Shown here piece by piece: positions 47,462-52,751 of a stretch of 64,000 bases of DNA. A program made the translations under genes and the position numbers. The stretch spans positions 248,001 to 312,000 of the forward strand of contig JAFYQF010000012.1 of the NCBI GenBank assembly GCA_017559905.1, in the 5' to 3' direction. Origin of the DNA: a bacterium. GTDB taxonomy: Bacteria; Cyanobacteriota; Vampirovibrionia; Gastranaerophilales; Gastranaerophilaceae. Position 1 is the stretch's first letter. The number at the start of each line of letters is the position of its first letter. The notes under the pieces are model-generated. The model was not told the DNA's origin and searched no databases. It worked only from the letters and a program-made list of their open reading frames with translations.

Positions 47462-47487
47462 TTTGTGGGTTATTCACAAAGGATTAT

Positions 47488-47518
47488 AAAAAGAGCCTTT
47501 TTTTAAAAGGCTCTTTTT
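47488..47518. terminator. Bidirectional terminator
   Basis: AAAAAGAGCCTTTT...AAAAGGCTCTTTTT between rpmB and the converging minus-strand gene. Confidence 0.9.
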
Positions 47519-47523
47519 GTGTG

Positions 47524-48051
47524 TTAATTTAATTCTTTCAAATCTTCAGGATTTACAAATTTCATACCAGTAGGTTTTTGCGGTAAATTTTCTGGCTGTG
47601 CTAGCGGTGCCGGTAGGGCTGGTGCGAAATCAAGTTCTCCTGATAGCATTTTTATTAATTTGATTATTGATAGATCCATATTTAGTAAAACCTCGAATTC
47701 CACTGCGTTTTTAACCAATGGTGGAGTTGGGTATGGAGAGGATTTTTTTATTGCAGAAATAACTCTGTTATCATAATCCTCATTATTTGAAGACTGAATA
47801 ATCTCGTATTTGGTAAGATTCCCTTTAGTATCTATTTTAAAAGAAATTACTGTTGTAAGGTTTTCATCACTGTTAGGCATTTCGAAGTTGTTGATAATTT
47901 TTTGTGCAACTTTCACCGTATATTCTTGAACTTCAGAAGAAGTGTTTGGTAAATGAATAAAATCGGAGTTTGGATTTACCAAATCGAAAGAGTATACAGG
48001 GATGTTAATTCCTATTAGTAATGCGAGTATTAAAAATATATTTTTTATCAT
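47524..48051 (-). CDS. TonB/TolA C-terminal-domain exported protein, third of three
   Basis: 175 aa. Signal peptide (IKNIFLILALLIGINIPVYS), then EYTVKVAQKIINNFEMP and ISFKIDTKGNLTKYEIIQSS, followed by ISAIKKSSPYPTPP: the V-x-F-x-I-x-x-x-G-x-x-x-x-x-x-x-x-S-S...A-x-x-x-x-x-P-x-P-x-P pattern of TonB/TolA C-terminal domains. The C-terminus is Pro-rich (APALPAPLAQPENLPQKP). It lacks the N-terminal domain shared by its two neighbours. RBS AAGGA, 7 bp after the preceding gene. Confidence 0.72.
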   Translation of the reverse strand: MIKNIFLILALLIGINIPVYSFDLVNPNSDFIHLPNTSSEVQEYTVKVAQKIINNFEMPNSDENLTTVISFKIDTKGNLTKYEIIQSSNNEDYDNRVISAIKKSSPYPTPPLVKNAVEFEVLLNMDLSIIKLIKMLSGELDFAPALPAPLAQPENLPQKPTGMKFVNPEDLKELN

Positions 48052-48058
48052 AAAATCC

Positions 48059-48820
48059 TTATTTTTTATTTACATCAAGTACGTAATAATCAAAACTCAT
48101 TATGATAGAAACGTCTTTTAGGTCTTTGTCTACTGATGATGGGAATTTGTCGAAAGGTTCAGTGTTTTTTACTGCTTTCAACGCTCTTTCATCGTTAGTA
48201 CTATTCCCTGAACTTTCTTTGATTTCACACGAAACCAAGTTGCCATCTCTGTCTATTTTGAATAAAACTTTAGCAACTCCACCGTGGTTTGTAACTGGTA
48301 ATACCCAGTTTTCGCGGATATCTTTTTGTACTTTAATCACGTATTCTTTCATCGCAGGGTGTTTGTAAAAATATTTGTTGATTAAATCTGCGTTGTTTGT
48401 AGTTGCGTTTTTAGTACGAATTTCCCTTGTGGTCACTAGTTGTTTAACCATTTTATCGTCTTTTACGTAGTTATTGATGTTCTTGAAAAAAGAGTTGTCG
48501 TTAACTTTGCTCATAAATGCATAAGCTTCCGCCCAAGTTGTTGGCGTTGCATATTGTTCTGGGTCAAAATCCTTAATTTTCATAATCCCAATTTTATTGT
48601 TAGCGACATTGTATTTTACGTAAGCAATTCGCTCTTCTGCAATTTTGTTGCTATATCTAACTACATAGAAAATATTGTTATTATTTTTGTAAATTGAGTC
48701 GTGGTCTAGGTAGATGTATTTGTCAGTATTTGTCAAATTTAATCTAACCCAGTCAACGGCTTGGGCTTTGGGGCTAAATATGGCTAGAATAGCGCAGAAA
48801 ATTGCGATTTTCTTAAACAT
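48059..48820 (-). CDS. TonB/TolA C-terminal-domain exported protein, second of three
   Basis: 253 aa. Signal peptide ending PKAQA. An N-terminal beta domain (about 22-85: VDWVRLNLTNTDKYIYLDHD and KIAEERIAYVKYNVANNKIG) aligns by eye with the next protein upstream. C-terminal half: EYVIKVQKDIRENWVLPVTN, VLFKIDRDGNLVSCEIKESS and ALKAVKNTEPFDKFPSS, a TonB/TolA-like C-domain. No membrane anchor and no ExbB/ExbD nearby, so not a classical energy transducer. RBS GAGGAG. Confidence 0.75.
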   Translation of the reverse strand: MFKKIAIFCAILAIFSPKAQAVDWVRLNLTNTDKYIYLDHDSIYKNNNNIFYVVRYSNKIAEERIAYVKYNVANNKIGIMKIKDFDPEQYATPTTWAEAYAFMSKVNDNSFFKNINNYVKDDKMVKQLVTTREIRTKNATTNNADLINKYFYKHPAMKEYVIKVQKDIRENWVLPVTNHGGVAKVLFKIDRDGNLVSCEIKESSGNSTNDERALKAVKNTEPFDKFPSSVDKDLKDVSIIMSFDYYVLDVNKK

Positions 48821-48846
48821 AAGATTTTCTCCTCAAGGATAAACTT

Positions 48847-48882
48847 TTAAAAGAGAAACCACCGCAGATACGGTGATTTCTC
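48847..48882 (-). terminator. Terminator between TonB-C genes 1 and 2
   Basis: On the minus strand GAGAAATCACCG-TATCTG-CGGTGGTTTCTC-TTTT. It may only attenuate, since no separate promoter for the next gene is obvious. Confidence 0.7.
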
Positions 48883-48891
48883 AAAGCAAAA

Positions 48892-49749
48892 TTATTTTAC
48901 GTATCTTTTGAATCTTTTTTGTTCAAATGTAATTGGAATAATTACAGTTTGATTTACAAAGCTCTCATGTTGCGGGAATTGCGCAAATGGAGCGGTCAAA
49001 TTCACTGCTGCAACTGCTGCACGACGTGCTTTTTCGCATTGTGAAGATGAGTCAAGTATTTTGTATCCGTTGTAGCTGCCGTCTGAGTTTACGCTGATAA
49101 TAAGATTAATTATTGTGTTAGCTGTTTCTTTTGATGTTTTCCAGTTTTCAAAAATGTCAGCCTTAATTTGCTCTACGTAAGTGTTGAATAATTCCTCAGC
49201 AACTGCTTGAGGGTTGTTTTGCTCAACTTTGTTTGCTACAGGAACAACTTTGGTTTCTTCTTTTGGTTGTTCTTTGATTTTTTCTTCTTTAATCTTTTCT
49301 ACTTTAGGTTGTTCAGCTTTGGCTTTTTTTTGTTCTTCAACTTTTACAGGTTGTTCTTCTGTTTGAGTTGTTACTTTGTAGTGTGATTGGAATGCATATT
49401 CGTGAGCAGATGTGAATATTGCATTGTCCATAATATCTTTCATAAAAGCTTTAGCGTGTTTGCTGTAGTAACTTGGGTTGTATTTTTCTTCGTTGAATTC
49501 TTCAGCTCTAATAATACCTGTTTTGTCTGTTTTATAGTCAGATTTTATGTAAACTATTTTTGGCAAATCATTTCCTTTTTTGTAAAGGACTGCGTATGTG
49601 CATACATCTTCTGCAATATATTTGATAGAGTCATTATCGATAAAAGTTTGAATATCATCGTTTCCGCTATCAATAGCTACCCAAGTTGCAGCGTTTGCAG
49701 AAAGCGCTGAACATAAACACACTGCCAAAGTTAATAATTTCTTTTTCAT
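48892..49749 (-). CDS. TonB/TolA C-terminal-domain exported protein, first of three
   Basis: 285 aa. Signal peptide (LLTLAVCLCSALSANA), N-terminal beta domain like that of its neighbour (TWVAIDSGNDDIQTFIDNDS and KIVYIKSDYKTDKTGIIRAE), a Lys/Glu/Gln/Pro linker (about 125-180, as in TolA/TonB linkers), then YVEQIKADIFENWKTSKETA, IISVNSDGSYNGYKILDSSS and VNLTAPFAQFPQ. The shared N-domain loosely resembles surface-adhesin-E-type domains. RBS GAGGG. Confidence 0.74.
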   Translation of the reverse strand: MKKKLLTLAVCLCSALSANAATWVAIDSGNDDIQTFIDNDSIKYIAEDVCTYAVLYKKGNDLPKIVYIKSDYKTDKTGIIRAEEFNEEKYNPSYYSKHAKAFMKDIMDNAIFTSAHEYAFQSHYKVTTQTEEQPVKVEEQKKAKAEQPKVEKIKEEKIKEQPKEETKVVPVANKVEQNNPQAVAEELFNTYVEQIKADIFENWKTSKETANTIINLIISVNSDGSYNGYKILDSSSQCEKARRAAVAAVNLTAPFAQFPQHESFVNQTVIIPITFEQKRFKRYVK

Positions 49750-51656: not shown

Positions 51657-52751
51657 ATGCGAATTAATGCAATTAACAATTACAATACTACCCCAGTAAA
51701 CTTTTCAGGTAAAGACAAAAAACCAAGCAATAGCTTGCGTAACGCAGCAATGGCAACCTTAATGGCAACTGGTTTGTCAATGATGACACCATCTTGTAGA
51801 CAAGAAGCAATTACTCACGAGCATCATTTTGATGTTCCTGTAGATACATTTGTGAAAAAAGAATTGACGCCAACTCAAGTTCCTCCACAAATCATTTATG
51901 TAGAAAAGGAAGTGCCAGGTAAAAATGACACTATTATTATAAAAGATTCGATTCCTTATATTGTCGAGAAAAACGATACAATTTGGGAAACTAAATATGA
52001 TACTATCAGAGTTCCAGAATTCAAAACTGATACAGTTTGGCAAACTAAATATGATACTATCAAAGTTCCAGAATATATTACAAAATATGATACTATTTTC
52101 AAAACAGATACTATTGTTCAACCTGGTGATACTATCCTTAAACGAGATACAGTAACACTACCTGGTGAAACAATTTATGTAAAAGAAGATTGGAAATCAC
52201 CAGTTCCTCCAAAACAACAAGAAATTTACGAACAATTAGGTATTGAAACTACTGGTCAAGGCAAATTCTTCTTGTCATTGTCATACTATGATAGAAAAAA
52301 TAGTGTTCTTGTAAGTAGAAACTTAAATGGTATGGCTTCTTCTCGTGATGGTAAAGTTCTTGTATACAACGTAATCAAAACTGGTTGGGATCATGAAGCT
52401 GAAGGTGTAACTTTAGGCAAAAACGAAAAATTTGAAAAACATTTAGTATACTTGTCAGATGATGGTGAAAGTCTAGGTATGAAAATTATGACACCAAAAT
52501 CAGATGTAAATGTTTCAAATAACAATGGTAGACCAAACTGGACTGTATTTGAAAAAGGTAAACTTTCTACTCCAAGTGCTTGGAATGAAACATCTTCATT
52601 CTTTGCAACTCTAGAAAATGGCATAGTTAAATTGACAAACGGATTTAAACTAAAACAAGGTATGACTCCGAATGCTGTTACTACTGTTAACCCATACGAT
52701 AGCGAATGGGAATTGATTAACTGGAACGTAGTAAAAGGCGACCCAGACTAG
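51657..52751 (+). CDS. DTI-repeat protein with non-standard N-terminal signal
   Basis: 364 aa. N-terminus MRINAINNYN-TTPVNFSGKD, then a hydrophobic stretch (NAAMATLMATGLSMMTPSC) ending in Cys, like a delayed lipoprotein signal but without a good lipobox. Residues about 75-180 are low-complexity D-T-I/V repeats (TKYDTIRVPE, TKYDTIKVPE, KTDTIVQPGDTIL) expected to form extended beta structure. The C-terminal globular part (about 195-364) has KFFLSLSYYDRKNSVLVSRN and WDHEAEGVTLG. RBS GGAGG. Likely surface or exported; family not recognised. Confidence 0.68.
   Translation: MRINAINNYNTTPVNFSGKDKKPSNSLRNAAMATLMATGLSMMTPSCRQEAITHEHHFDVPVDTFVKKELTPTQVPPQIIYVEKEVPGKNDTIIIKDSIPYIVEKNDTIWETKYDTIRVPEFKTDTVWQTKYDTIKVPEYITKYDTIFKTDTIVQPGDTILKRDTVTLPGETIYVKEDWKSPVPPKQQEIYEQLGIETTGQGKFFLSLSYYDRKNSVLVSRNLNGMASSRDGKVLVYNVIKTGWDHEAEGVTLGKNEKFEKHLVYLSDDGESLGMKIMTPKSDVNVSNNNGRPNWTVFEKGKLSTPSAWNETSSFFATLENGIVKLTNGFKLKQGMTPNAVTTVNPYDSEWELINWNVVKGDPD
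51975..52082 (+). repeat. Tandem 54-bp repeat (2 copies) encoding 18-aa DTI units
   Basis: Units starting at 51975 and 52029 encode DTIWETKYDTIRVPEFKT and DTVWQTKYDTIKVPEYIT. Degenerate DTI half-units continue to about 52170. Confidence 0.85.

Follow-up and report, generated by a model that had tools for sequence, protein, structure and literature searches.

A three-gene operon of predicted secreted, unanchored TonB/TolA-type heads in a gut cyanobacterial relative with no detected TonB-dependent receptor

TonB and TolA usually transmit force through the cell envelope, and their C-terminal head is regarded as the working end of the rod that passes it on. TonB binds peptide through the third strand of this domain, and in the known complexes the TonB and TolA heads dock on a peptide or on an edge strand. 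GltJ of myxobacteria is membrane-anchored, unlike the proteins described here. A second fold of relevance is that of Haemophilus protein E, in which, according to PMC6652776, a sheet comes first and a helix closes the C-terminus. According to our analysis, the TonB/TolA head seems to serve some other purpose in the genome considered below.

The window, i.e. the whole stretch of 64,000 nucleotides that was analysed, carries three minus-strand open reading frames where the first-pass annotation had placed them, which form an operon transcribed in the order P3-P2-P1, with P3 as its first gene (Table 1). The intergenic gaps amount to 71 bases between P3 and P2 and 7 bases between P2 and P1. On one side the trio is flanked by rpmB, and on the other by a gene for a 179-aa protein that adjoins recA, both flanking genes, rpmB and recA, being named by eye from the sequence. 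A promoter-like site precedes P3 in a consensus scan in which such sites were, in total, no commoner than in shuffles, and the hairpin in the rpmB-P1 interval presumably serves both convergent genes. P1 has no protein-E-like N-domain, in which it differs from P2 and P3. Elsewhere in the window (51657-52751), units like 'YDTI.VP' are repeated in a 364-aa protein, a relative of which fills the rpmB-recA slot in some other genomes (L188, L196, L197).

Table 1. Features of the P3-P2-P1 locus, in window coordinates
Feature	Position	Strand	Remarks
Promoter-like site 5' of P3	49775..49804	-	11/12 matches, consensus scan only
P3	48892..49749	-	285 aa: signal peptide, protein-E-like N-domain, low-complexity linker, TonB_2-type C-domain
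P3 signal peptide	49690..49749	-	residues 1-20, heuristic; column identity 0.84 over 14 genus rows
P3 N-domain	49384..49686	-	residues 22-122, from alignment
P3 TonB_2-type C-domain	48916..49188	-	about residues 188-278; from sequence profiles alone
P2	48059..48820	-	253 aa: signal peptide, protein-E-like N-domain, TonB_2-type C-domain
P2 N-domain	48455..48754	-	residues 23-122; strands, then helix, like Haemophilus protein E
P2 C-domain	48083..48358	-	residues 155-246; TolA domain III/TonB CTD fold
P1	47524..48051	-	175 aa: signal peptide, TonB_2-type C-domain, variable linker, conserved C-terminal tail
P1 C-domain	47674..47940	-	residues 38-126
P1 conserved C-terminal tail	47527..47571	-	residues 161-175; orthologue consensus about GKKFVNPYEIEKSLE
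Terminator-like hairpin, rpmB-P1 interval	47485..47521	+	17 pairs; consensus match, reported on the + strand only

A TonB/TolA-type domain had been claimed for all three C-termini, a claim staked on a match by profile or predicted structure, and it is borne out: Pfam TonB_2 (PF13103) scores 68.8 bits in P1, 49.7 in P2 and 24.9 in P3, in 3/3 cases above its cut-off of 22, and TonB_C (PF03544) is above cut-off in P1 and P2, not in P3. Our own C-domain profile was built partly from P1-P3 and matches them by construction; Pfam is the independent test. AlphaFold models of P1 (mean pLDDT 74.2, pTM 0.57, 14 sequences) and P2 (mean pLDDT 77.9, pTM 0.59, 23 sequences) were compared with the PDB, where, as the tool itself warns, a Z below 8 can mean a common arrangement, and the best neighbours of both C-domains are TolA domain III and the TonB CTD. 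For P1 these include the TolA C-terminal domain 2x9a_B (Z 11.5, rmsd 2.4, 87 aligned) and 1lr0, whose higher Z of 12.6 comes with an rmsd of 8.8 over 113; for P2, 6sly (Z 9.9, rmsd 3.5, 98 aligned) and 6s3w, TolAIII with a bound TolB peptide (Z 9.9, rmsd 3.0, 98 aligned). The heads are thus of the TonB/TolA C-terminal domain type, P3 by profile and P1 and P2 also by predicted fold. The column conservation of the third strand, which binds the peptide in TonB, is 0.66 in P1 vs 0.64 for the whole C-domain, so that it is not singled out there; in P2 it is 0.87 vs 0.78 and in P3 0.68 vs 0.59, other strands being equally high.

The N-terminal domain common to P2 and P3 was rightly noticed on first reading, since a single profile over 31 sequences finds both (the match to P3 in its own genome has E 5.4e-39, P3 itself being part of the profile). 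It was also called new, and this does not stand, novelty being ruled out by the predicted fold: in the PDB comparison of the P2 model the neighbours of this domain are five Haemophilus protein E entries (3zh7, 3zh6, 3zh5, 6gut and 6gus) with Z of 8.2-9.1, 3zh7_B giving Z 9.1 and rmsd 3.3 over 92 aligned residues. By the P2 model, the N-domain that P2 and P3 share thus has the protein E (Adhesin_E) fold in diverged form. At the level of sequence this identity is weakly supported. Searches of PDB sequences with P3 and with the N-domain profile gave nothing credible, and Pfam Adhesin_E (PF16747) has no match in P1-P3, nor in a search of their own genome; among relatives found by the N-domain profile, L132 scores 33.8 bits and L061 17.6 bits against a cut-off of 23.7. 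The latter locus (L061 4769-5896) encodes a 375-aa protein with the protein-E-like N-domain and a C-terminal part that is unlike TonB and matches nothing in Pfam.

Across the order, N-domain matches occur in 61 of 286 genomes. With ORFs that have identical last 60 residues counted once, 82 distinct N-domain ORFs were examined; a C-domain is also present in 28/28 P2 and P3 proteins of the genus operon and in 38/54 of the others, and the remaining 16/54, all outside the operon, are secreted-looking proteins with no detected C-domain. Such proteins, one of them the clear Adhesin_E match just mentioned, would fit a reading in which the C-domain is a mere retention domain, holding on to peptidoglycan or an outer-membrane protein, for example, and the protein-E-like domain is the working ligand-binding or surface part. 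We consider this distinctly improbable: P1 keeps the C-domain only, and in other genera there are secreted-looking proteins made of three TonB_2 C-domains per chain and nothing else (two neighbouring ORFs at L064 2123-4569 and one at L065 5399-6565), from which the head would appear to have an independent role.

Export was assessed by a heuristic scan, not by SignalP, that looks for a hydrophobic start, an AxA-type site, a lipobox and later membrane segments. A hydrophobic start and an AxA-type site are found in all three proteins, in agreement with the signal peptides read earlier, the predicted cuts being VYS|FD in P1, AQA|VD in P2 and ANA|AT in P3; the picked site is off the family position in 2/14 P1 rows (L053, L056) and in 1/14 P3 rows (L047). 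In P1-P3 the same scan detects neither a lipobox nor a membrane segment further along the chain, where 19-residue windows average at most 1.23 on the Kyte-Doolittle scale, and the statement that the trio has no membrane anchor holds as well. It would be logical to suggest that P1, P2 and P3 are exported to the periplasm and freed from the membrane. Conservation along the chains, as mean pairwise column identity, is uneven: in P3 it is 0.63 in the N-domain and 0.59 in the C-domain and falls to 0.13 in the linker, and in P1 it is 0.64 in the C-domain, 0.24 in the linker before the tail and 0.71 in the tail itself. A search of the own genome with the P1 tail motif, allowing at most one mismatch, gave 10 matches (2 exact) vs 10 for the reversed-pattern control, and with no excess over this control the idea of a motif common to other proteins was dropped. 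PADLOC models gave 0 matches for P1-P3, by which a role as anti-phage defence genes was likewise set aside.

The first-pass annotation described the trio as lacking an energiser, which is correct for the locus, there being no ExbB or ExbD on the window's contig, and incorrect for the genome, which is 99.96% complete and has its only ExbB (1) and ExbD (2) genes in one cluster with an anchored TonB, ExbB-ExbD-ExbD-TonB, on contig C10. Ahead of this cluster (L012 6451-10751) lie two secreted-looking proteins, of which one has a sub-threshold TrbI-like match. In the motor TonB the scan places a strong membrane segment at residue 72. TonB_2 is found in eight places of the genome, three of which are P1-P3; the ORFs at the other five all have a membrane segment, four by scan and a 1162-aa protein by eye. 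Among further observations, a 166-aa membrane-anchored TonB_2 protein (L013 3685-4185) has neighbours that resemble, by eye, a type I secretion system (TolC, ABC exporter, HlyD-like), and contigs C11 and C13 carry two similar gene sets (L014 3417-7448 and L016 3437-7027). Each set combines a multi-membrane protein of 523-532 aa, FHA-like at its start by eye and with no Pfam match, another of 304-335 aa whose N-terminus holds a membrane segment, and a protein composed of a zinc-ribbon-like part, a membrane segment and TonB_2, the last being below cut-off in the second copy; the L014 set additionally has a VWA protein. We take this layout to recall that of the myxococcal GltG/GltJ genes.

The decoy or relay array for envelope receptors that was originally imagined would, in the sense of TonB-dependent receptors, have no target here. 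A profile search for Plug, the domain of such receptors, found no match in the window's genome, and the suggested check of co-occurrence gave 0/14 genus genomes, the window's included, though a profile search can miss very diverged plugs; in a wider set Plug is present in 11/59 genomes, the window's counted among the 59, none of the 11 being in the genus. With no classical receptor of this type detected in the genome or its 13 genus relatives, a decoy for such receptors is unlikely, and as stated we reject it; a decoy or relay for whatever the motor TonB binds is possible. On the Tol side, TolB_N (PF04052) has no match in the own genome, and of its two OmpA-domain proteins one is a secreted-looking protein of 188 aa and the other is MotB-like by eye.

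All three orthologues are present at the same rpmB-recA site in 14/14 genus genomes (13 relatives and the window's). They evolve faster than the neighbouring genes: mean identity to the window's copy over the 13 relatives is 0.47 for P1, 0.58 for P2 and 0.52 for P3, the HEAT-repeat neighbour having 0.97 over 11 relatives and RecA, where complete, 93.8-95.9% within the genus. P1, P2 and P3 are under purifying selection, with dN/dS of 0.03-0.18 in the 23 values that could be computed out of 24 (three genes in each of 8 genome pairs). The one left had an infinite dS, and dS exceeded 1.7 in three more. The dN/dS values rule out neutral or decaying duplicates. Chance is excluded by the E-values, the presence of the operon in every genus genome and the dN/dS range.

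Beyond the genus, a contig scan of relatives with P2 as query found nothing, and the 179-aa neighbour gave 80 named loci, for the most part from MAGs of Candidatus Gastranaerophilales and of unnamed bacteria (gut relatives). In 42 of these rpmB lies upstream on the contig, which made them scorable (the other 38 were not): 12 have the triple set, 12 a single N-C gene at the rpmB-recA site, 11 nothing in between (gap of 40-178 bases) and 7 a larger gap or other genes. These counts bear on the suggestion that P1, P2 and P3 form one complex in which, for instance, the P1 tail is the peptide for the P2 or P3 heads. The constant company of the three genes in the genus, the short P2-P1 gap and a conserved tail placed after a variable linker would all suit such a complex; yet the loci with a single N-C gene point to a family that works there without these partners, and we regard the suggestion as rather unlikely.

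A tree of 114 C-domains over 90 columns, whose bootstrap is unsettled, gives support of 100/98 to the P1 group, 100/99 to the P3 group and a weak 62/71 to the P2 group; P1 and P2 come together (98/93, with one long-branch intruder), P3 standing apart. Identical C-domains were counted once. The tree supports duplication and divergence, the order of events being unsettled. The trio may have arisen at the rpmB-recA site from an N+C gene like the single one of related genera, an origin which locus and tree favour, short of proof.

A different origin is suggested for the secreted N-C protein L102 of genome G193, whose C-domain falls inside the motor-TonB clade with support of 100/96 and whose head is 83/94 identical to that of its own ExbBD-linked motor TonB, as though it were a capture of the motor's own head; on account of this identity, some secreted heads may share the motor's ligand. 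An identical C-domain is found in L063 of G003, a MAG listed in the window's genus (78% complete, 4% contaminated). From here comes the main rival to the explanation we favour, namely that the free heads bind the envelope ligand of the motor TonB, titrating it, buffering it or handing it over. L102 and L063 speak for it. Against this, the heads of P1, P2 and P3 have diverged from their own motor TonB head (20/89, 34/95 and 28/92 identical), the L063 contig may be contamination, no Plug-bearing receptor was found in the genus, and that the ligand is shared is something we only infer; we treat this rival as unlikely, if worth keeping in view.

We propose, tentatively and at a little under an even chance, that P3-P2-P1 is an operon of unenergised secreted periplasmic adaptors, in which the head docks on envelope proteins and the N-domain binds something else. 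Periplasmic adaptors had been among the first suggestions, and with secreted, unanchored heads and no receptors detected they are the best remaining and most economical reading. The three proteins would be exported and cut free of the membrane, after which the heads would dock without being energised, on an envelope protein that offers a peptide or an edge strand. P2 and P3 would use their protein-E-like domain to bind a second partner, so that both could bridge two envelope components, and the P1 tail, on its flexible linker, may be P1's own second contact. The trio would then be accessory to the single ExbB-ExbD-ExbD-TonB motor of the genome and not a part of it. Counting against adaptors, the third strand of P1 is not singled out, the tail motif shows no excess, the C-domain could be a passive fold, and in the C-domain tree P3 does not go with P1 and P2, whose joint group holds an intruder.

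Free heads that are conserved and selected in a genus with no classical receptor found indicate that the head is usable without the rod, and that no TolB was found in the window's genome adds to this argument. We may even suggest, as a wider picture that we think unlikely at present, a receptor-free Ton world among gut cyanobacterial relatives, where the TonB head has come to serve for periplasmic docking in general, a lone ExbBD-TonB motor persists, and secreted heads, some of them captured from the motor, compete or relay at an outer-membrane partner. The operon is a defined place to look for the role of a Ton system where TonB-dependent receptors are absent.

Among known systems, the TonB/TolA transducers are the closest, being alike in the C-terminal domain by profile (P1-P3) and by predicted fold (P1 and P2); unlike them, P1-P3 have no membrane anchor and no adjacent ExbBD/TolQR, and their genome, unlike the usual setting of these transducers, has no TonB-dependent receptor or TolB_N that we could find. 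Haemophilus influenzae protein E (Adhesin_E, PF16747) shares with the P2 N-domain the predicted fold of a sheet and a C-terminal helix; in contrast to it, P2 and P3 have this part fused to a TonB_2 domain and show neither lipobox nor Pfam Adhesin_E match nor any evident host binding. In the open-access literature, as covered by titles and beginnings of abstracts, we found no secreted protein described that joins TonB_2 to a protein-E-like domain. SjdR of Anabaena and myxococcal GltJ resemble P1-P3 in being TonB-like and considered outside TonB-dependent transport; SjdR, beside which GltJ is named, is, according to PMC8262864, membrane-anchored and has no TonB-like periplasmic domain, unlike P1-P3.
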